Assembly: GCF_016863395.1 (NCBI RefSeq)
Contig: NZ_BOOU01000036.1
Span: 62,001-126,000, forward strand
Length of the DNA stretch: 64,000 nt
Direction: 5' to 3'
DNA from: Sphaerisporangium rufum
GTDB taxonomy: Bacteria; Actinomycetota; Actinomycetes; Streptosporangiales; Streptosporangiaceae
Part shown: positions 6,805 to 45,581 of the stretch, piece by piece
How positions within the stretch are numbered: position 1 is the first letter of the stretch
Layout: each line of letters starts with the position of its first letter
Made by a program: the position numbers and the translations under genes
The notes under the pieces: generated by a model
The model's database searches: none
Told to the model about the DNA's origin: nothing
Seen by the model: only the letters and a program-made list of their open reading frames with translations

Positions 6805-7546
6805 CCACGTGGAGGCTCCTGTCCGTGGCGGGTGCTGCGCGAAAGGACGTGCCGAGGCCGGCCTGGCGCACGCGCCGGATCGGCCGGAAGAGCGTGGAAA
6901 GGGTGCTCGGGACCATGGCCGGGCGGCATGGACCGCCGGCTCACTTGGGCCACGCCTGGCAGGCTAGTCCACGGGGCGCGCGCGGGCAATCACTTAGTGT
7001 GATTGCGCATGGACGCGGATCCGGCGCGGCCGGGGTTCCACCCGGACGGCCGATCCAGAGCGCCGCCGGCACCCGGTCCGCGTCCCTCGCCGGCCGGGAC
7101 GGGCACGCTCCGTCATCGACCACTGCCCGGTTCCGGCTGCGGAGACCGGCGGACGGTCCCTTTCCCCAAGGCCAGCTTCTTGTTACCCGGCCCCACCGGT
7201 CGGGTCTACCGGCCCCGGCCCGCCGGGCGGGCCTTCGGGGCGCGGACGGCGGGCCGTCCGGCGGGCCGGGTAGCCATGAAATGCCCAAGTAGCGCCATTT
7301 GCCGGGTTCTCCAGGGGTCGTCGCCACCCATCTTCCGGCCGCCGTCCGATCGAGCGGGCGGCGCCGCCCCGGCGGACGGGACCGGTCCACCGTAACGGAT
7401 GGCCCTAAACCTCGCGGGGATCGCCACACGGGCACGATTCGCACAAAAGAAGCACGGGACCAACCCTGGTATCTGTGCGATCGTGGACAACGTGGGGCAA
7501 GTTCTCTGGAGACGCGGATCGCGTTGGTGACTGAGGGTGATGGAGC
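6805..7546. other. 742-bp gap without a convincing gene
   Basis: No reading frame here has protein-like composition; the frames encode Pro/Arg/Gly-rich nonsense. The notable element is a perfect inverted repeat GCAATCAC-N5-GTGATTGC at 6986-7006. A TAGTGT hexamer (6995-7000) overlaps it, with an ATG 8 nt further on. The right-hand end, roughly 7390-7546, is less GC-rich and probably holds the GntR promoter. Confidence 0.5.
6986..7006. promoter_or_regulatory. Perfect 8+8 inverted repeat, candidate operator
   Basis: The arms GCAATCAC and GTGATTGC flank TTAGT. The right part contains a -10-like TAGTGT. It sits in the divergent gap between the 101-aa gene (leftward) and the GntR gene (rightward), so it could be a GntR operator. 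This is inference only. Confidence 0.4.
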
Positions 7547-20850: not shown

Positions 20851-22284
20851 ATGACCAAGACGCAGAAGGCCGGTTACCGCTGCGCCGAGTGCGGCTGGCG
20901 CACCGCCAAGTGGGTCGGCCGCTGCGGCGAGTGCCAGGCATGGGGCACGGTCGACGAGGAGGGCGCCCGCGCCGGGGTGCACGTCGTCCAGGGCGGCGCG
21001 GTCAGCGCGCCGGCGCTGCCCATCGCCCAGGTGAAGGCGGAGATCGCCCGGGCCCGCACCACCGGGGTGGGCGAGCTGGACCGGGTGCTCGGCGGCGGGC
21101 TGGTGCCCGGCGCGGTGGTGCTGCTGGCCGGCGAGCCCGGCATCGGCAAGTCCACCCTGCTGCTGGAGGCCGCCGCCAGCATGGCCCGGTACGAGACGGT
21201 GCTCTACATCACCGGCGAGGAGTCCGCCTCCCAGGTGCGGCTGCGCGCCGACCGCATCGGAGCCGTCCAGGACGAGCTGTACCTGGCGGCGGAGACCGAG
21301 CTGTCGGCCCTGGTGAGCCATGTGGAGAAGGTCCAGCCGCGGTTGCTGGTGGTCGACTCGGTGCAGACCATCGGCTCCGCGCAGGGCACCGGGGTGCCCG
21401 GCGGGGTCACCCAGGTGCGCGAGGTCACCGGCAACCTCGTCCGGCTGGCCAAGGAGCGCGGCATCTCCACCGTCCTGGTCGGCCACGTGACCAAGGACGG
21501 CACGATCGCCGGCCCGCGCACCATGGAGCACCTGGTCGACGTGGTGCTGCACTTCGAGGGCGACCGCCACTCGCGGCTGCGCATGGTCCGCTGCGTCAAG
21601 AACCGCTTCGGGCCGACCGACGAGGTGGGCTGCTTCGACCTCAACGAGCGCGGCATCCACGGGCTGTCCGACCCGAGCGGCCTGTTCGTGTCCCGGCGCT
21701 CGGAGCCGGTCTCCGGCACCTGCGTCACCGTCACGGTGGAGGGCACCCGGCCCATCCCGGCCGAGGTGCAGGCGCTGGTCGGGCCGACCGAGGCCCAGCA
21801 GCCCCGCCGGTCGTCCTCCGGGCTCGACCCGTTCCGGGTCACCATGATCCTCGCGGTGCTGGAGCGCCGGCTGAACGCCCGGCTGAGCGGCTGCGACGTC
21901 TTCACCGCCACCGTCGGCGGCATCCGGCTGGCCGACCCGGCGGTCGATCTCGCCGTCATGCTCGCCGTGGCCAGCGCGGCCGGCGACCGCCCGCTGCCGC
22001 CGGGGCTGGTCGTGCTCGGCGAGGTCGGCCTGGCCGGCGAGCTGCGCCCGGTGCGCGACGTGCGCCGCCGGGTCGCCGAGGCCGCCCGGCTCGGCTTCAC
22101 CCACGCCCTGGTGCCCGCCGGCTCGCTGGAGGAGGGCGCCGGCCCGCCGCCGGGCGCCGCCGGGGCGGCCGGCCGGCAGCCGGTGCCGGTGGAGCGACCG
22201 CCGCTGCGCACCACCGCCTTCTCCCGCGGCTTCGAGGTCACCGAGGCGGAGAACGTCTGGGACGCCCTCACCCACGTCACCTGA
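20851..22284 (+). CDS. radA: DNA repair protein RadA (branch migration ATPase)
   Basis: A 477-residue RadA/Sms. A zinc finger [18 protein letters not shown] comes at residues 8-30, a RecA-type ATPase with Walker [10 protein letters not shown] at residues 94-102, the RadA-specific KNRFG motif at residues 250-254, and a C-terminal Lon-like domain. RadA processes recombination intermediates. The ATG at 20851 is 6 nt after TAGCGT (20839-20844). The downstream disA start is 67 bp away. The radA-disA order is widely conserved, and RadA is reported to restrain DisA activity in bacilli and mycobacteria. Confidence 0.97.
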
Positions 22285-22351: not shown

Positions 22352-23440
22352 GTGGCGAACAACACGAAGGGGATCGACGAGCGGCGACGGGCCACCCTTG
22401 CCACGCTCGCCCCCGGAACCGAGCTGCGGGACGGGCTGGAGCGCATCCTGCGCGGCCACACCGGCGCGCTGATCGTGCTCGGCTACAACGGCACGGTGCG
22501 CGAGGTCTGCACCGGCGGCTTCCAGCTCGACGTCGAGTTCTCCGCCACCCGGCTGCGCGAGCTCGCCAAGATGGACGGGGCCATCGTGGTCGACCTCGCG
22601 GCGCACAAGATCGTCCGGGCCGCGGTGCATCTGGTGCCCGACTCGTCGATCCCCACCAACGAGTCCGGCACCCGGCACCGCACCGCCCAGCGGGTGGCCC
22701 TGCAGACCGGCTTCCCGGTCATCTCGATCAGCAAGTCCATGCGGATCATCGCCCTCTACCTGGACGGCGTGCGGTACGTCATGGAGGAGTCGGCGGCCAT
22801 CCTGTCCAAGGCCAACCAGGCGCTGGCCACCCTGGAGCGGTACAAGATGCGGCTGGACGAGGTGTCCGGCACGCTGTCCGCCCTGGAGATCGAGGATCTG
22901 GTCACCGTTCGGGACGTCGCGGTGGTGGTGCAGCGGCTGGAGATGGTGCGCCGCATCTCCGGCGAGATCGAGGGATACGTCGCGGAGCTCGGCACCGACG
23001 GGCGCCTGCTGTCGCTGCAGCTCACCGAGCTGGTGGGCGGGGTCGAGGAGGACCGCGACCTGATCATGCGCGACTACCTGCCGGCCGAGGCCGGCCGCCG
23101 GGCCCGCCGGCGCGGCGAGGCGCTCGCCGAGCTGGGCGGGCTGTCCGCGGCCGACCTGCTCGACCTGACCGCGGTCGCGCACGTCCTCGGGCACGACGGC
23201 TCGGAGTCCCTGGAGACGCCGGTGAGCCCGCGCGGCTTCCGGCTGCTCGCCAAGGTGCCCCGGCTGCCCGCCAGCGTGGTGGACCGGCTGGTCGACCACT
23301 TCGGCGGCCTGCAGAAGCTGCTGGCCGCCAGCACCGACGACCTGCAGTCGGTGGGCGGCGTCGGCGAGTCGCGGGCGCGCAGCGTGCGCGAGGGCCTGTC
23401 CCGGCTGGCCGAGGCCTCCATCCTCGAACGCTACGTCTGA
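22352..23440 (+). CDS. disA: DNA integrity scanning protein DisA, diadenylate cyclase
   Basis: A 362-residue cyclase that makes c-di-AMP from two ATP while scanning DNA. The DAC domain (about 1-150) has the catalytic DGA at Asp75-Ala77 and RHRT at residues 108-111. A helical linker follows. The C-terminus has the helix-hairpin-helix region ([22 protein letters not shown]). The GTG start at 22352 follows ATG-less GGGGGCCAT. A TAAACT hexamer at about 22317 could be its own promoter. Actinomycetes usually have DisA as the sole c-di-AMP synthase, so this gene likely supplies the ligand for the riboswitch at 33183-33344. Confidence 0.96.
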
Positions 23441-25280: not shown

Positions 25281-26225
25281 TCAGGCGGCGAGCTTGAGGC
25301 CCAGGGCGGTGAGGTTGCGGCGGGTCCAGTCCAGCTCGTCGGCCAGGGTGGCGACCAGGGCGGCCGGGCCCTTGCCCTTGGCCGGGGCGGCCAGGCCGTG
25401 CGCCTCGACCTCGATGAGGGCCCCGCCGATCGGCGGGCCGGACAGGATCGCGGCGAGGGTGTCGGTGAGGATCGACTCGGTGGCCGGGGCCTCGCCGGAG
25501 TGGTTGTGCACGTGGCCCAGCTTGACCACCGAGGCGCCGGCGGCGGCCACCCGGCGCAGCGCCGGCCCGGGCTCCTCGACCCCGCAGGTCAGGTGGCAGG
25601 CGTCCAGGCAGACGCCGAGATACTCCGAATCGATGCCGCACACCCGCTCCACCGCCTGCTCGGTGGTCTCCAGCACGCAGCCGGGCCACGGCTGGAAGCC
25701 GACCCTGATCGTCTTGCCGGTGACGCTGTGCAGGCCGCGCAGCTCGCGGGAGAGCCGGTCCAGCCGGCGGGACGCGATCGCGTGCAGGTCGGCCGGCCAG
25801 TCGCGCCGCCAGCCGATCGGGATGGTGGAGACGCTGCCGTTGTGCACGTCGTCCGGCAGCAGGTAGGCGAGGATCTTCGCCAGCGACATGGTGTAGCGGT
25901 AGCGCTCCGGCTTGGCCCAGTCGGGGCCGGGGCTGTCCTGCCCCATGCCGCGCCCGCCGGCACCGTTGAGGCTGACGACCTCCAGGCCCCGTTCCTCCAG
26001 GGAACGGCGCAGCCGGACCAGCTCGATGCGGTCGGCGATGAGGTGGTCGGCCACCGCGGGGGCCAGCCAAAGGCCGATCCCGAGCCGGTCCACCCCGAGC
26101 CTGCGGCGCACCGGGACGGCGTACCGGGTGAGATGGGCGATCAGGTTCTCCAGATCCTCCGCGGGGTGGACGCCCGTGTTGTAGGACAGGTGGACGAGCG
26201 TGCCGTCCTCGTGACACAGCCGCAT
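25281..26225 (-). CDS. EboE-like TIM-barrel protein
   Basis: A 314-residue xylose-isomerase-like barrel. The start MRLCHEDGTLVHLSYNTGVHPAEDLENL, the GLWLAPAVADHL strand, EVVSLNGAG and a YLLPDDVHNGSVSTIPIGW stretch match what I recall of EboE, a metabolite-traffic protein of the ebo cluster. Metal-ligand-like acidic and His positions occur in DACHLTCGVEEP and KLGHVHNH. GGGGAGG precedes the ATG at 26225. EboA/B/C partners are not next to it, so here it stands alone; function and even assignment to EboE proper are uncertain. Confidence 0.6.
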   Translation of the reverse strand: MRLCHEDGTLVHLSYNTGVHPAEDLENLIAHLTRYAVPVRRRLGVDRLGIGLWLAPAVADHLIADRIELVRLRRSLEERGLEVVSLNGAGGRGMGQDSPGPDWAKPERYRYTMSLAKILAYLLPDDVHNGSVSTIPIGWRRDWPADLHAIASRRLDRLSRELRGLHSVTGKTIRVGFQPWPGCVLETTEQAVERVCGIDSEYLGVCLDACHLTCGVEEPGPALRRVAAAGASVVKLGHVHNHSGEAPATESILTDTLAAILSGPPIGGALIEVEAHGLAAPAKGKGPAALVATLADELDWTRRNLTALGLKLAA

Positions 26226-26596: not shown

Positions 26597-29140
<2,544 letters not shown>

Positions 29141-29299
29141 GTCGTCGCTCCTCACAGAGCGGTCAGGCAGCTCGGGATATCCGGGCCCGCCGCATCCGCA
29201 TGCTAGCCCCGACCGGCGACCGCTCAATACAGGAGACGTTCCCCGGGAGCAGGGCGTTCACCCTCCATCCAACTACCGATGAGGGCTCCGGTGTTCCCG

Positions 29300-30046: not shown

Positions 30047-30466
30047 TGATCCTCTCCCCACGCGGGGGCGGCATTCAGGGTCGCCCCCGCCGATAATTGT
30101 CACACGGGACCCGCTCCCCTCGCGCCCCGGCCGCCGGATCGGGCCGGTGCGCGGCCGTCCAGGCCCCTGCCCGAGGTCAGCAGGGGTCGTCTGCCGTTCC
30201 ATCACGGCCGGGCAAGGACCGTTCCAGAGCATTCCGCGTCTCTCAAGCCGCCTTACCGGATGGCCCGGGAAAGCTGATCCGGCGTAAACATCCGGCGGGG
30301 CGCCCCAGCGGGTCCGAACGCCGGAAAAGCCGCTCCCATCGGGATTCCCGCGTCGAACCGGACCCGCGGCCGCGCGCCACCCGAGGCCCGATCCCCGGAT
30401 CCGCCGAGGAGCTTTTGCATGCCGGACACGGCGAAGGCGCCACCAGGAGCGGTCCGGTGCGTGAAT

Positions 30467-30495
30467 ATTCCGCACGCGGGCGCCGCGTGCGGAAT
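30467..30495. repeat. Perfect 13-bp inverted repeat with 3-nt loop
   Basis: ATTCCGCACGCGG and its exact complement flank GCG. It is 420 bp from the nearest gene and has no T run on either side. Confidence 0.85.
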
Positions 30496-30791
30496 GCGGC
30501 GCATAGTAAGACGGCATACGCATCGGAGCGGGCGCGGGCCGATCGCCCGGCCCCGCCCCGGCGGGCGGTCGCGCATCGGCGCCTTCCGGACGCGGACCTC
30601 ATCATGAACGAGAAATCGCCGCGGCGCCGACGTTTCCGTAAGATCGGCCCCCGATGATTCTCTTGCCGCTTACCCGGCGGCCGCGCGGGAGTCCGCGGGC
30701 GAGGCGGCCTTCGCGGACCGTCCCGCGCGCGCCCCGCCGGGGACGGGGGTCCGCCCCTGCGGGCGGGGGCGGGAACGGGCGATGGAACGCC

Positions 30792-32790: not shown

Positions 32791-33182
32791 GACCGGCAGC
32801 GTAGCCGTCGCCCGAGCACACCATGCCGCCAGGTAAAGTTGATCGGCAATATCGGTCGACCCCTAATTGCTCGACCGCCCATCGCACTCCCCCGGCGCCG
32901 CCGACCGGCCGGCTCCACCGTGAAAACAGCCATCTTTCAGGATGTTTCATGATCTGAGGGACGCAGCCACCACCGGGTGCGAACCACGGCCCGGTCATGC
33001 CCCGGCAAAGCCGGTGCGGACCGGCGCCCCCCGGCGACACAGCGTGATCACTTCGTGATGCGGTGGTTGTGAAACCTCAACAGAATCCGCAGTTCTGGTT
33101 GAGCACGAACCAGGACTGCACTAATGTCCAGCGTCAATGTCGGCCATCGTGCGGCGGTGGCCGATCCGCCTAATCCCGGCCG
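32791..33182. other. Gap upstream of the c-di-AMP riboswitch
   Basis: About 390 bp with no gene. It holds the GNAT promoter at its left end (TACGCT 32798-32803) and the hydrolase promoter (33099-33127) at its right end. Confidence 0.6.
33095..33127 (+). promoter_or_regulatory. Sigma-70-type promoter of the NlpC/P60 gene with a dyad on the -35
   Basis: TTGAGC (33099-33104), a 17-bp spacer and TAATGT (33122-33127) predict transcription from about 33134, ahead of the riboswitch. CTGGTT (33095-33100) and AACCAG (33108-33113) form an inverted repeat across the -35, a candidate repressor or activator site. Confidence 0.6.
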
Positions 33183-33344
33183 TGTCCCCGCACGCCGGGA
33201 ACCGGGGACCCACCGGTGGCCGCGGCTCGCCCGCGCACCACCGCCCCTGGGGTGAATCCGAGAGGGAGGCGTCACGATCTCCGTGACCGAACGCGCTCGG
33301 TAGGGCTACTCCGGCCCGAACCCGTCAGCTAACCCGGTAGGCGT
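33183..33344 (+). ncRNA. ydaO-type c-di-AMP riboswitch
   Basis: The leader carries the diagnostic blocks of the ydaO-yuaA RNA: GGGAACCGGGGACC near 33197, TGGGGTGAATCCGAG at 33249-33263, and the nearly invariant CCGAACCCGTCAGCTAACCC at 33316-33335, ending GGTAGGCG at 33337. The ribosome site (AAGGAG, GAGGAG, 33347-33357) follows at once, so ligand folding can reach either transcription or translation. The class is a c-di-AMP off-switch and in actinomycetes often precedes cell-wall hydrolases. I recognised it by motif recall, not by covariance search. Confidence 0.88.
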
Positions 33345-33364
33345 TCAAGGAGAGGAGCACATCG

Positions 33365-34441
33365 GTGCAGGCTAGGCGTACGCCTGGAGAGATCTCGGGA
33401 CGGCCCCCCCGCGGCGTCGCACGGACCCCGCGTGCCCGGCTCGCCGGCGCGGCCGGCGGCGCCCGGCGCGTCGCCCGCCGTCTCACCCTGGTGACCGTCG
33501 CGCTGACCGCGGTGGCCGTCGGGGCACCGGTGGGGTCGGCGGCCGCCGAGCCCAAGCCCGGCCTGAACAAGCTCAAGACCCAGGTCGAGGATCTCTACAA
33601 CGAGATCGAGTCGCTGACCGAGCAGTACAACGGTCAGCGGGAGCGTCTCGCCCAGGTCCGGCGCTCGGCCGAGTTGGCCAAGAAGACGCTCGCCCGCAGC
33701 GAGACCGATCTGGCGGAGAAGCGCCGCAAGGCCGGCATGTACGCCCAGGACGCCTACATGACCGGCGGCCTCGGCTCCTCCCTGGCCCTCGCCATGTCCG
33801 CCGACCCGTCCCGCTACCTCGACCAGGCCGCCACGACCTACACCATGGAGATGCAGCAGGGCCAGGAGGTCTCCCAGATCAGCCAGGCGATGGAGACCGC
33901 CAGGCGGGCCAAGGAGAGCGCCCGGGCCCGTGAGGCCGAGGTGCAGAAGCTCGTCAGCGACCTCGGCGCCCAGCGCGACAAGATCCGCAAGGCGATCGGC
34001 CGTACCGAGACGAGCCTGTTCCGCCAGGCGCGCGCCAAGGTCGGCGGCTTCGGGCGCGCCACCCGGGTCGCCATTCCCATCCCCGGCGATGGCAAGGCGG
34101 CCGAGGCGACCAAGTGGGCGCTCACCCAGCAGCTCAAACCATACGTCTGGGGCGCCGAGGGCCCCAACACTTTCGACTGCTCGGGCCTGGTCATGTGGGC
34201 CTACCAGAAGGTGGGCATCAGCCTGCCGCACTACACCGGCGACCAGTGGACCGCGGGCACGCACGTGTCCCGGGACGACATGCGTCCCGGTGATCTGGTC
34301 TTCTTCCACAGCGACCTGCACCACGTCGGCATCTACATCGGTGGCGGGCTGATGGTGCACGCGCCGCACACCGGTGACGTGGTGCGGGTGGCGCCGATCG
34401 GCAACCGCCCGTTCGCCGGCGCGGTGCGCATCGCCGACTGA
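33365..34441 (+). CDS. Secreted NlpC/P60 peptidoglycan endopeptidase (RipA-like)
   Basis: A 358-residue cell-wall hydrolase. The GTG at 33365 has GAGGAG 7 nt upstream. A long basic signal sequence (to about residue 60, VALTAVAVGAPVGSAAA) precedes a coiled-coil hairpin (about 70-235, with the heptads QVEDLYNEIESLTEQYNGQR) that likely autoinhibits. The C-terminal NlpC/P60 domain has catalytic Cys272 (FDCSG), His320 (HHVGIY) and a third polar residue His332 (MVHAPH). It cleaves D-Glu-mDAP bonds in the stem peptide, by analogy with RipA. Control by the upstream c-di-AMP riboswitch couples wall remodelling to second-messenger level. Confidence 0.93.
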   Translation: MQARRTPGEISGRPPRGVARTPRARLAGAAGGARRVARRLTLVTVALTAVAVGAPVGSAAAEPKPGLNKLKTQVEDLYNEIESLTEQYNGQRERLAQVRRSAELAKKTLARSETDLAEKRRKAGMYAQDAYMTGGLGSSLALAMSADPSRYLDQAATTYTMEMQQGQEVSQISQAMETARRAKESARAREAEVQKLVSDLGAQRDKIRKAIGRTETSLFRQARAKVGGFGRATRVAIPIPGDGKAAEATKWALTQQLKPYVWGAEGPNTFDCSGLVMWAYQKVGISLPHYTGDQWTAGTHVSRDDMRPGDLVFFHSDLHHVGIYIGGGLMVHAPHTGDVVRVAPIGNRPFAGAVRIAD

Positions 34442-41765: not shown

Positions 41766-42975
41766 CCGCCGGCCGCCCGGTGGCCACCTTGAGCGAGGTG
41801 AGCCCGCGGATGACGTAGTTCGGCGCCCAGGACGGCTCCTCGACGAGCTCCATCTCCGGGGCGGCCCGCAGCAGCGCCCCGAACGACTCGATCAGCTCGA
41901 TCCGGGCCAGCGGCGCCCCCAGGCAGTAATGGATGCCCGCACCGAAAGAGATGTGCGGATTGTCCACCCGGCCAAGATCCAGCCGGTCCGGCTCGGCGAA
42001 GACCTCCGGGTCGCGGTTCGCCGAGCCGAACAGCAGCGCCACCTCCGCGCCCCGCGGGACGCGCACGCCACCGATCTCCACGTCCTCGAACACCCAGCGC
42101 TCGAAGAGCTGCAACGGCGTGTCCCAGCGCATCAGCTCCTCGACGGCCCGGGGCAGCAGCGCCGGGTCCGCGCGCAGCCGGGCCAGCTCGCCGGGGTTGC
42201 GGAACAGCGACCACCAGCCGTTGCCGGTCACGTTCACCGTCGCCTCGTGGCCGGCGTTGAGCAGCAGGACGCAGGTGCCGACCAGCTCGTCCTCGGTCAG
42301 CCGGTCCCCCTCGTCCACCACCCGGGCCAGCGCGCTGATCAGGTCGTCGCCCGGCTCGCGGCGGCGCTCGGCGGCCAGGGACCGCAGGTAGCCGGCGAAC
42401 TCCTCGGCGGCCCGGGCCGCCCGGTGCTGCGTCTCGACCGGCGGGTTGAGCTCATACATGCCGCAGATGTCCGCCGACCAGGGCCGCAGCAGGTGGCGGT
42501 CGGCCGGCGGGATGCCGAGCATCTCGGCGATCACCGTCACCGGCAGCGGCTCGGCCACCTCGGCGATCAGGTCGCCGCCGCCGCGGGCGACGAACGCGTC
42601 CACCAGGCCGCCGGCGATGCGGCGCACCCGGGGCCGCAGCTCCTCGACCATGCGCGGGGTGAACGCCCGGGACACCAGGCGGCGCAGCCGGGTGTGCACC
42701 GGCGGCTCCACGTCCAGCATGCCGGCCCGGGTCACCCGCCAGAACGGCTCCTGGAAGGCCGGCTCGGGCTCGCGGCCGAACTCCTCGTGCGTGGCGACGT
42801 GCAGGTAGGAGCGGCCGAGCCGCCGGTCGCGCAGCGCCGCGTTGACGTCGCGGTGCCGGGCGACCAGCCACTGCCCGGTCGGCTCGAAGAAGCTCACCGG
42901 CGCGCTGTCACGCAGCTCCCGGTAGGCGTCGTAGGGATGGGCGACGAACTCCGGACTCCACGGGTCGAAAACCAC
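41746..42975 (-). CDS. Cytochrome P450
   Basis: A 409-residue soluble bacterial (class I) P450. The I-helix oxygen-binding motif is NAGHEATVN, the K-helix ExxR is EELMR, and the heme loop SFGAGIHYCLGAPLARIE has the thiolate Cys351. The GTG 42975 lies 6 nt after TACCAT (42982-42987), suggesting its own leaderless promoter, although terC ends only 48 bp upstream on the same strand. No ferredoxin or reductase gene is adjacent and no biosynthetic cluster surrounds it, so the substrate is open. Confidence 0.95.
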   Translation of the reverse strand: MVFDPWSPEFVAHPYDAYRELRDSAPVSFFEPTGQWLVARHRDVNAALRDRRLGRSYLHVATHEEFGREPEPAFQEPFWRVTRAGMLDVEPPVHTRLRRLVSRAFTPRMVEELRPRVRRIAGGLVDAFVARGGGDLIAEVAEPLPVTVIAEMLGIPPADRHLLRPWSADICGMYELNPPVETQHRAARAAEEFAGYLRSLAAERRREPGDDLISALARVVDEGDRLTEDELVGTCVLLLNAGHEATVNVTGNGWWSLFRNPGELARLRADPALLPRAVEELMRWDTPLQLFERWVFEDVEIGGVRVPRGAEVALLFGSANRDPEVFAEPDRLDLGRVDNPHISFGAGIHYCLGAPLARIELIESFGALLRAAPEMELVEEPSWAPNYVIRGLTSLKVATGRPAVSAATG

Positions 42976-43023
42976 CAGACCATGGTAAACACCCCGGTGG
43001 CCGCCCGGGGCGGCCCCGGCGGA

Positions 43024-43899
43024 TCAGGACTTCGGCGCGGCCCCGGCCCCGGACCCGGGCTCGGTCTCGGCCCTGACCTCGGGCCGGGCCTCGGACCGGG
43101 CCTCGGGCCTGGACCCGGGCTCGGTCTCGGACGTGGCCTCGGACCCGGGCTCCGACTCGTAACGCTCGTGCAGCTGGACCGGCCGCTGCCGGCCGGCCTT
43201 GCGGCGGGACCGGATGTTCAGCAGCTCGACGCCGAGCGCGAAGGCCATCGAGAAGTAGATGTAGCCCTTGGCGATGTGCTGCTCGAAGCCCTCGGCGATC
43301 AGCACCACCCCGATCAGCACCAGGAAGGCCAGCGCCAGCATCTTGATGCTGGGGTGCCGCTCGACGAACTCGCTGATGGGCTTGGCCGCGACCAGCATCA
43401 CCCCGACCGCGACGACCACCGCGGCGATCATCACGCCGATCTCGTCCACCATGCCGACCGCGGTGATCACCGAGTCCAGCGAGAACACCACGTCCAGCAG
43501 CATGATCTGCACCAGCACCCCGGTGAAGGACACCGCGGCCGCCTTGCCGCCGGAGTGACCCGACCCGCCCTCCAGGCTGTCGCCGATCTCGAAGGCGCTC
43601 TTGCCCAGCAGGAACAGCCCGCCGAGGATCAGGATCAGGTCACGCCCGGATATCTCCTGCCCGAGCACCTCGAACAGCGGCGCGGTCAGCCGGATCACCC
43701 ACGACAGCGCGAGCAGCAGGGCCAGCCGGCTCACCAGGGCCAGCGCCAGGCCCAGCTTGCGGGCCTTGTCCCGCTGCTCGGCGGGCAGCTTCCCGCTCAG
43801 GATCGAGATGAAGATGATGTTGTCGATGCCGAGGACGATCTCAAGTGCGACCAGGGTGAGAAACCCGATCCAGATCTGCGGGTCTGCCACCCATGCCAT
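43024..43899 (-). CDS. TerC-family integral membrane protein with repetitive acidic tail
   Basis: A 291-residue protein with about seven TM helices. The TerC hallmarks are EIVLGIDNIIFISIL (acidic-Asn helix) and the second copy MLLDVVFSLDSVITAVGM. TerC proteins export or handle metals, notably manganese, and are named for tellurite resistance. The ATG 43899 has GGAGG 8 nt upstream; an earlier GTG or ATG would add a Pro/Arg stretch. The last ~50 residues are low complexity (EPGSEATSETEPGSRPEARS), absent from typical TerC. No yybP-ykoY riboswitch is visible upstream. Confidence 0.9.
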   Translation of the reverse strand: MAWVADPQIWIGFLTLVALEIVLGIDNIIFISILSGKLPAEQRDKARKLGLALALVSRLALLLALSWVIRLTAPLFEVLGQEISGRDLILILGGLFLLGKSAFEIGDSLEGGSGHSGGKAAAVSFTGVLVQIMLLDVVFSLDSVITAVGMVDEIGVMIAAVVVAVGVMLVAAKPISEFVERHPSIKMLALAFLVLIGVVLIAEGFEQHIAKGYIYFSMAFALGVELLNIRSRRKAGRQRPVQLHERYESEPGSEATSETEPGSRPEARSEARPEVRAETEPGSGAGAAPKS

Positions 43900-44059: not shown

Positions 44060-44178
44060 GGTCATGAGTGCCAGCGTCAAGCCCCGGCTCGCTGGCCGGC
44101 AACCCTCGCGCTCGCGGCGGGGTGCCCCGGGTGAGGACCAGGTCCGGCACGAGGTGTGCCGGACAAGCGCGGGCTCCG
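44060..44178 (+). ncRNA. SAM-IV riboswitch
   Basis: The leader contains the strongly conserved SAM-IV core: GGTCATGAGTGCCAGCGTCA (from 44060), AGCCCCGGCTCGCTGGCCGG (44080-44099) and CAACCCTC (44100-44107). A variable stem then precedes GGGGTGCCCCGGGTGAGGAC (44119-44138) and a 3' pseudoknot stem CCGGCACGAGGTGTGCCGG (44144-44162). SAM-IV is an actinobacterial SAM-sensing off-switch upstream of sulfur genes. The downstream SD (AGGAGG, 44211-44216) is preceded by CCTC, which could sequester it. Identified by motif recall, without a covariance search. Confidence 0.88.
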
Positions 44179-44222: not shown

Positions 44223-45581
44223 GTGTCCGTGCTCACCGTCCTTGCGGCCCAGTCCCCCGCGACTTCCGGCGCCGCCGTTCCGGCCGGCGGCCGGGCCGCG
44301 CCCTCGGCGCCGTCCGGCGGCGCGGCCGCCGTTCCCGCGGTGCTCGGCGCCGACCTGGAGGTGCCCGTCAAGGGCGGCCGGCTGGTCCGGTACGCCAACC
44401 TGGACTACGCGGCGAGCGCCCCCTGCCTGGCACCGGTGCGCGACGCGGTGACCGCCGCGCTGCCGGCCTACTCCAGCGTGCACCGGGGCGCCGGGTACGC
44501 CTCGCAGCTCACCACGGCGCGCTACGAGCAGGCCAGGCACACCGTGCGGTCCTTCGTCGGCGCCCGGCCCGGGGACGCCGTCGTGTTCACCCGCAACACC
44601 ACCGACGCGGCCAACCTGCTGGCCAGGTGCCTGCCCGCGGGCACCACCGTCGTGGTCTTCGAGACCGAGCACCACGCCGCCCTGCTGCCCTGGCCGGACG
44701 CGGTGCGGCTCGCGCCGCCGGAGTTCCCGGGCGAGGCGGTCCGCGCCGCGGACGAGACCCTCGCCGCCATCGACGGGCCGAAGCTGCTGGTCGTCACCGC
44801 CGCCTCCAACGTCACCGGCGAGCTGTGGCCGATCGCCGCGCTGACCCACATCGCGCACCGGCACGGCGCCCGCGTCCTGGTGGACGCCGCGCAGCTCGTC
44901 CCGCACCGCCGGCTGAACCTGACCGCGCTGGACCTGGACTACGTGATGTTCTCCGGTCACAAGCTGTACGCCCCGTTCGGGGCGGGCGCGCTGGTGGGCC
45001 GGGCCGACTGGCTGGCCGAGGCCGAGCCCTACCTGCACGGCGGCGGCGCGTCCACGGCCGTCACCGGCGGTGCCGGACAGGGGCGGCCGCCGGCCGTCGA
45101 GTGGAGCGCCGACCCCGAGCAGCGGCACGAGGCCGGCACGCCGAACGTGCTGGGCGCCATCGCGCTGGCCGCCGCGTGCGACGCCCTGTCGGCGACCGGC
45201 TGGATCGGGCCGATGCGGGAGGAGGAGCGGCTGCTGGGGCTGCTCCGCGACGGCCTGGCCGGCATCGAGGGGGTCCACGAGCTGTCGCTGTGGGGCCCCG
45301 GCCACCCGCGCGTCGGCATCGTGTCCTTCGTGGTGACCGGCTGGACGGCCCGGCGGGTCGCCGAGACGCTGTCGGCCGAGTACGGCATCGGCGTGCGGGA
45401 CGGCAGGTTCTGCGCCCATCCGTTCGTCCGGCACCTGCTGGACGGCATCGGGCACACCGCGGCCGGCGACTGCGCGGACGGCACGGCGGGCGCCGTCCGC
45501 GCGTCCATCGGCATCGGGACCACCGAGGAGCACGTCCGCCGGCTGGTCGCCGCGGTCGCGGATCTCGCCGCGCGCCGCTGA
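44223..45581 (+). CDS. Class V aminotransferase, cysteine desulfurase-like, under SAM control
   Basis: A 452-residue PLP enzyme. A disordered Ala/Pro-rich head (about 1-50) precedes the fold: NLDYAASAPCLAPV, FTRNTTDAANLLARCL, ETEHHAALLPW, VTAASNVTGELWP, VDAAQLVPHR, and the PLP Lys247 in SGHKLYAPFGAG. These match the CsdA/SufS-like branch (group II). The canonical group II active-site Cys loop (RxGxHCA) reads RDGRFCAHP here, so a Cys is present. The GTG at 44223 has AGGAGG upstream. Its placement after a SAM-IV riboswitch predicts a role in sulfur or methionine metabolism. Confidence 0.85.
   Translation: MSVLTVLAAQSPATSGAAVPAGGRAAPSAPSGGAAAVPAVLGADLEVPVKGGRLVRYANLDYAASAPCLAPVRDAVTAALPAYSSVHRGAGYASQLTTARYEQARHTVRSFVGARPGDAVVFTRNTTDAANLLARCLPAGTTVVVFETEHHAALLPWPDAVRLAPPEFPGEAVRAADETLAAIDGPKLLVVTAASNVTGELWPIAALTHIAHRHGARVLVDAAQLVPHRRLNLTALDLDYVMFSGHKLYAPFGAGALVGRADWLAEAEPYLHGGGASTAVTGGAGQGRPPAVEWSADPEQRHEAGTPNVLGAIALAAACDALSATGWIGPMREEERLLGLLRDGLAGIEGVHELSLWGPGHPRVGIVSFVVTGWTARRVAETLSAEYGIGVRDGRFCAHPFVRHLLDGIGHTAAGDCADGTAGAVRASIGIGTTEEHVRRLVAAVADLAARR

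Follow-up and report, generated by a model that had tools for sequence, protein, structure and literature searches.

The analysed window, a stretch of 64,000 nucleotides from the genome of Sphaerisporangium rufum, carries a c-di-AMP riboswitch of the ydaO/yuaA class directly ahead of a gene for a predicted RipC-like wall hydrolase. Judged by its sequence, the riboswitch is true and well conserved, and the arrangement is ordinary for Actinobacteria. The element is quite probably a translational OFF switch of this known class. The gene of the c-di-AMP synthase DisA is located in the same window; its proximity looks like a matter of conserved gene order.

Riboswitch aptamer and probable promoter

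The leader region and the gene that follows it comprise these features:

33099–33127, + strand: probable promoter (TTGAGC, 17 nt, TAATGT), conserved in the genus
33157–33359, + strand: c-di-AMP (ydaO/yuaA) riboswitch aptamer, 203 nt (RF00379, Rfam)
33365–34441, + strand: predicted secreted NlpC/P60 endopeptidase, RipC-like, 358 aa (domain, profile and model matches)

A cmscan search of the whole window gave an RF00379 match at 33157–33359 on the + strand with a score of 67.7 bits (E 1.5e-13); the gathering score of the family is 38, and the alignment spans the full model (1–134). The length of 203 nt is due to long inserts in the peripheral loops, and the conserved core of the family, GGGGUGAAUCC and CCCGAACCCGUCAGCUAACC, is intact in the cmscan alignment. 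The aptamer ends 5 nt ahead of the GTG start codon of the hydrolase gene at 33365. The initial annotation, made from the letters of the sequence, had placed a ydaO-type riboswitch with its conserved blocks directly upstream of the hydrolase, and the covariance match bears out both points; the element was right, and the start given for it, 33183, falls within the aptamer, 26 nt from its 5′ end. Its statement that ydaO RNAs turn genes off at high c-di-AMP agrees with the membership of the aptamer in a known OFF class. For the window copy, binding of c-di-AMP and the OFF logic would hold by analogy with other species.

The score of 67.7 bits is the lowest among the five RF00379 copies of the S. 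rufum genome, as might be the case for a non-functional relic. However, it is far over the cut-off, the core is conserved, the genome encodes DisA, and the orthologous hydrolase gene is preceded by an aptamer in the other ten genomes of the genus too; a relic is hardly credible.

The probable promoter is located upstream of the aptamer. TTGAGC is found in 9/10 genus sequences and TARTGT, at 17 nt spacing, in 10/10 (the window counted); the −10 element TAATGT agrees with the TAnnnT motif reported for S. lividans (PMC8079986). A sigma-70 consensus scan found nothing, despite this conserved pair.

The window contains one further riboswitch of another class:

44060–44175, + strand: SAM-IV riboswitch, 104.8 bits (cmscan, window)

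The gene after it (44223–45581) is closest to SufS-family cysteine desulfurases, with a score below the cut-off; the pairing of SAM-IV with a SufS-family gene is likewise listed for S. lividans (PMC8079986).

The NlpC/P60 hydrolase

The hydrolase contains an NLPC_P60 domain (PF00877, E 1.1e-28) at residues 258–348. The motifs FDCSGL, HHVGIY and VHAP are present in this domain, at what we take to be the positions of the family's catalytic Cys, His and His, which is in line with the catalytic Cys-His-His noted in the initial annotation. A hydrophobic stretch at about residues 40–60 resembles, by eye, a signal peptide. The NCBIfam models rank in the order RipC (143.9 bits), DIP1281 (108.1) and RipA (95.8); the protein is near the cut-off of none of these three, missing those of RipC (NF038345, 425) and RipA (NF033741, 625). 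Among solved structures, the M. tuberculosis chain of 8idc matches best in sequence (E 3.9e-27, residues 243–347); according to the entry title, 8idc is an FtsEX/RipC complex.

The AlphaFold model of the hydrolase, built from 16 sequences, has a mean pLDDT of 67.8. It comprises two long helices (67–132 and 148–225) with a short helix between them, followed by the catalytic domain; the modelled architecture thus suggests a two-helix coiled coil and a catalytic domain. In fold, 8idc comes first once more (E 1.2e-10), though with low TM-scores of 0.33/0.38; C. glutamicum Cg1735 comes next, and RipA catalytic modules rank lower. With RipC first among both profiles and solved structures, the predicted enzyme can be described as RipC-like, and is not called RipC. 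Of the earlier term 'RipA-like endopeptidase', the NlpC/P60 endopeptidase part stands, but RipC outranks RipA and neither cut-off is reached. Dependence of the hydrolase on FtsEX would be a guess.

Proposed pseudoknot and Shine–Dalgarno sequence

Three short motifs at the end of the leader form the putative switching region:

33309–33312, + strand: CUCC in the loop of a GGG..CCC hairpin, 5′ strand of the putative pseudoknot (sequence; class test in relatives)
33349–33352, + strand: GGAG immediately after P1, the putative pseudoknot's 3′ strand (4 bp; sequence; relatives)
33354–33357, + strand: Shine–Dalgarno (SD) sequence GGAG (sequence; relatives)

The SD sequence is located 7 nt ahead of the start codon and 1 nt (A) past the pseudoknot strand. 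The putative pseudoknot of the window has 4 bp only, with mismatched flanks, and the CUCC is able to pair with either GGAG. In the proposed mechanism, c-di-AMP is synthesised by DisA and, when it is abundant, the aptamer RNA would fold round the ligand, stabilising a pseudoknot in which CUCC 33309–33312 pairs with GGAG 33349–33352. Abutting the SD sequence at 33354–33357, the pseudoknot would keep the ribosome off the hydrolase start and block translation; a drop in c-di-AMP would open it, and the RipC-like endopeptidase would be made. Both the control of translation rather than termination at the hydrolase gene and the cause that would lower c-di-AMP are points that we infer.

The geometry was compared in copies from loci L001–L182, which comprise most of the riboswitch places among the matches listed, plus disA loci, and do not all bear riboswitches. 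The row-finding pattern gave 111, then 123 and finally 148 rows; one false row was removed, leaving 147. No row came from 15 of the 182 loci; eight of these are disA loci, and the rest include true riboswitches (e.g. L057/L182, Rfam-positive). A scorable start and SD sequence are present in 132/147 parsed copies, including that of the window, with 15 rows lacking them; a small number of the 132 starts were wrongly assigned and belong to the short-ORF group described below. A CTG start at the proper SD spacing was chosen by the scoring in 32/132 rows (L001, L003 and orthologues); these are candidate starts.

Of the 132 copies, 52 have an SD sequence that overlaps the pseudoknot strand, 77 have one at most 10 nt from it and 3 have one at a greater distance; the pseudoknot–SD geometry fits in 129 of these scored copies, which were parsed from among the matches listed. 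Because the strand and the SD sequence were each selected as the top-scoring candidate, and GGAG can act as either, some of the overlap in copies with a CUCC loop arises automatically. Cleaner evidence for this geometry comes from the UUCC class, whose GGAAG strand is usually followed immediately by a separate GGAG serving as the SD sequence. UUCC loops carry GGAAG in 53/63 copies, over 16 protein clusters, and CUCC loops carry GGAG in 58/71 copies, over 25 clusters; both classes occur inside the largest cluster. The outer pair is Watson–Crick in 63/141 copies (shuffle mean 39.2, sd 4.8, maximum of 2000 shuffles 56) and, after collapsing to distinct cluster-and-base combinations, in 34/83. The loop–tail helix score is 14.39 vs 13.30 for swapped partners (sd 0.18, maximum of 200 swaps 13.81). 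When 146 loop-to-tail segments were aligned with MAFFT, column covariation picked out no single helix in the G-rich tail.

Translation or termination

The distance from CTAAC to the start has a median of 32.5 nt in the 132 copies (5–95% range 27–38 nt), and a T run of at least five is found in one of them. A second set comprises 104 copies among the matches listed, mostly non-actinobacterial as judged by the titles of 80/118 records among those matches. The median there is 111 nt, as obtained with an exact pattern and crude ORF calling and with a CTAAC count that starts 3 nt later than in the 132-copy set; the distance exceeds 60 nt in 72 copies, and 17 have a terminator-like site. In the actinobacterial layout, a terminator would hardly fit, and the pseudoknot is set against the SD sequence. 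Four Paenibacillus loci (L199, L218, L246 and L264) have an SD-like pseudoknot strand with a start 21–30 nt on, which means that this translational arrangement may extend beyond Actinobacteria.

A switch acting by transcription termination, non-canonical or via Rho, has been proposed for S. coelicolor rpfA. There, transcription is reported to terminate prematurely in response to c-di-AMP, and the rpfA transcript rises five-fold in a disA mutant of S. venezuelae (PMC10117811); in C. glutamicum, the transcript falls from the presence of the riboswitch alone, according to PMC9960051. On the other hand, no terminator-like site was found in 32850–33700 of the window, and the central 90% of CTAAC-to-start distances leaves little space for one. 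In C. glutamicum, moreover, c-di-AMP altered the reporter protein and not the transcript (PMC9960051), and the Streptomyces case was found to be Rho-independent by St-Onge et al., as cited in the same paper. Termination at the S. rufum hydrolase gene is accordingly judged unlikely, and translational control is the preferred reading.

Genomic context of disA and radA

Upstream of the riboswitch, the window encodes:

20851–22284, + strand: radA (TIGR00416, over the cut-off)
22352–23440, + strand: disA, diadenylate cyclase (NF010009; DAC, linker and HHH domains)
26597–29227, − strand: Clp-type ATPase, a long gene in the interval between disA and the hydrolase gene (nlpC), under every NCBIfam cut-off

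The identification of DisA at 22352–23440 in the initial annotation is confirmed by the NCBIfam profile (509.1 bits vs a cut-off of 201) and by the DGA and RHR motifs; RadA passes TIGR00416 with 504.5 vs 403.05. The gap between radA and disA is 67 nt. The end of disA is 9.7 kb from the aptamer, close to the 10 kb estimated earlier. The interval also includes mutY.

The initial annotation read this closeness as a circuit in which DNA damage, or inhibition of DisA by RadA, would lower c-di-AMP and raise wall cutting. A dedicated local circuit of this kind would suit the retained radA–disA pair and the 15 family genomes (S. rufum included) in which disA and the riboswitch, or its gene, are on the same contig and strand, 9.7–17.7 kb apart; in the remaining DisA-bearing family genomes they are on different contigs or on opposite strands (G026). 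RadA inhibits DisA. In B. subtilis, DisA activity is reported to be lost on DNA damage (PMC6547438, PMC11653572), and in Streptomyces, c-di-AMP is described as tied chiefly to ionic osmotic stress (PMC10117811, PMC11481543).

However, the order radA–disA–mutY..nlpC is kept in 7/7 family genomes compared (one has mutY inverted, another an insertion), which is what plain synteny would give; coaX adjoins nlpC in the four of these whose compared stretch extends that far. The eighth genome compared, G041, belongs to another family and keeps radA–disA–mutY and part of the Clp gene, with no close nlpC found behind them. In G026, the closest nlpC homologue is found beyond the other end of disA, about 10 kb away and on the opposite strand, and an Rfam search detected no riboswitch in its leader. 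The distance from disA to the listed riboswitches exceeds 100 kb in G043, G051 and G057, although they share one contig. S. rufum itself has four further RF00379 copies on other contigs, before genes for an NlpC/P60 enzyme, a CHAP enzyme and a protein without a family above the cut-off, and before a short-ORF leader; a single diffusible messenger would act on all of them. The dedicated circuit is therefore decidedly improbable. From the gene orders compared, the proximity of disA looks like synteny, and a shared messenger explains riboswitch placement best.

Distribution of the riboswitch and the cyclase

Among 60 genomes, including that of S. rufum, 48 have both riboswitch and DisA, 10 have neither, and each is present alone in one (Fisher 1.6e-9, with related species that share ancestry counted as independent, as also in the phylum sample below). 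The exceptions are G020, with four riboswitch copies and no DAC domain found, and G058, with DisA and no riboswitch. A DAC-domain search of 13 genomes (S. rufum, the 11 without a DisA match and G058) found the domain only in S. rufum and G058. In a sample of the phylum, the domain is present in 78/79 riboswitch genomes vs 290/396 genomes overall (P 2.8e-11), the lists being compared by eye and the riboswitch search having stricter filters that lose weak matches. The exception, G331, has two riboswitches and no DAC match; this genome is 88% complete. It is thus supported that riboswitch presence follows cyclase genes across genomes. This co-occurrence and the aptamer class point to c-di-AMP as the predicted ligand of the window aptamer.

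In G021, which has no DAC domain, a 22.6-bit RF00379 match below the cut-off (L332, 1407–1244, − strand; E 0.18 / 0.017) has most of GUCAGCUAACC deleted. Since it is located directly before the closest hydrolase homologue, on the same strand, it is probably a decayed riboswitch. Rfam searches of the leaders of the closest hydrolase homologues found no aptamer trace in the DAC-less G012, G023 and G024, and no riboswitch in the DisA-bearing G014 and, as mentioned, G026.

Ten genera of family f1 (G012, G016–G018, G021, G023, G024, G028, G031 and G033) have neither a DAC domain nor an above-threshold riboswitch, an apparent loss of c-di-AMP signalling. In G020, all four riboswitches are located on the 54-kb contig C101 (L185–L187), at 6846–7035, 26029–26177, 30439–30586 and 42967–43110; the G+C content and tetranucleotide profile of this contig are like those of two other contigs of the same genome. 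Horizontal gain of the riboswitches or recent loss of disA are the alternatives offered for this state.

A sister riboswitch with a short ORF

One of the other copies in the S. rufum genome has a different layout:

G000:C24:4061-4192 (S. rufum genome, outside the window; loci L002, L318): sister c-di-AMP riboswitch

Its orthologues are loci L011, L013, L030, L087, L124, L132, L136, L140, L144 and L145. In 11/11 genus genomes, this riboswitch is followed at the usual distance by a short ORF and by no long one; the ORF has 14 codons in 8/10 distinct sequences, 11 in one and 29 in one, and that of the eleventh genome (G008) is identical to that of G006. The real gene starts about 300 nt further on, and its product has a conserved SYFWDD block. 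This product has nothing above the cut-off in Pfam or NCBIfam and no PDB sequence match, and its AlphaFold model is unusable (pLDDT 39.6).

The stop of the short ORF (TAA, TAG or TGA) is 10–12 nt before a CGCCG-loop-CGGCG hairpin in 9/10 distinct sequences; in 9/10, the hairpin loop UCAGAAG is complementary over 7 nt to CUUCUGA just ahead of the gene. In S. rufum, the loop is CAGGUAG and pairing with the pre-gene block is lost. The TCTTCTGATGAAAGAT block (at most one mismatch) is present at the sister locus in the other ten genus genomes, one of which has a second match elsewhere; the only match in the S. rufum genome, on the same terms, lies away from the sister locus. A kissing-loop search gave 7–8 nt in 8/9 genus rows, a length within the single-sequence shuffle range (maximum 7–8 of 60 shuffles); the S. 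rufum row matched over 5 nt, in a different position, and no match at the pre-gene block turned up in four rows from other genera. The codon test of the short ORF is weak, with 54 synonymous vs 190 non-synonymous differences (127/98/143 by codon position). Among the 147 rows, parsed from among the matches listed, 22 have no SD-proximal start that opens 80 codons; ten of these belong to the short-ORF group, four lie ahead of genes of the same family in other genera and two lie ahead of another gene.

One tentative reading is that c-di-AMP gates a leader peptide, whose translation would open or close the gene through long-range pairing or Rho access. Jointly with it, and just as tentatively, the riboswitches of the genus may come in two wirings, most setting the SD sequence against the pseudoknot and the sister copy gating the short ORF. 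Our confidence in the relay was lowered slightly because S. rufum has no loop complementarity. No description of such a relay on the c-di-AMP riboswitch class was found, by title or abstract, in the literature searched. Riboswitches combined with a uORF are known for B12 (PMC11260477) and, together with Rho, for the Mg2+ box of M. tuberculosis (PMC12810186, which makes no mention of c-di-AMP).

Comparison with known systems

The published actinobacterial theme, that c-di-AMP restrains wall hydrolases, is here extended to the S. rufum lineage. The pseudoknot–SD contact in relatives bears on the unsettled question of translation (C. glutamicum) vs termination (Streptomyces rpfA), and the sister riboswitch could show how a translation switch also changes transcript levels. 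A literature search for c-di-AMP riboswitch together with Shine–Dalgarno in Actinobacteria found no paper.

The cg2402/nlpC riboswitch of C. glutamicum probably acts, according to PMC9960051, as a translational OFF switch; c-di-AMP lowered the reporter protein there and left the transcript unchanged. As in the window, a ydaO-type aptamer precedes an NlpC/P60 gene, no terminator is found and disA is present in the genome; a GGAG/CUCC pseudoknot was proposed there as well (PMC9960051). In contrast to the window case, which is known from sequence alone, nlpC of C. glutamicum heads a seven-gene operon and the link is reporter-tested.

Streptomyces genomes likewise have several ydaO riboswitches on secreted wall enzymes (PMC10117811, PMC8079986, PMC11481543), two species being reported with six and seven riboswitch-bearing hydrolase genes; blocking of the ribosome-binding site was suggested already by Haiser 2009 and Block 2010 (cited in PMC8079986). 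Streptomyces rpfA differs in the reported termination response and in encoding another enzyme class than NlpC/P60. The ydaO/kimA riboswitch of B. subtilis belongs to the same aptamer class, RF00379, and the solved ydaO structure contains a pseudoknot (PMC5393176), but a terminator and a potassium importer are found there (PMC9960051). M. tuberculosis RipC, as seen in the FtsEX/RipC complex 8idc, differs by the profile score far below the RipC cut-off and the low TM-scores of the window hydrolase, yet it is the best match in both sequence and fold and has the same composition, a coiled coil plus an NlpC/P60 domain.
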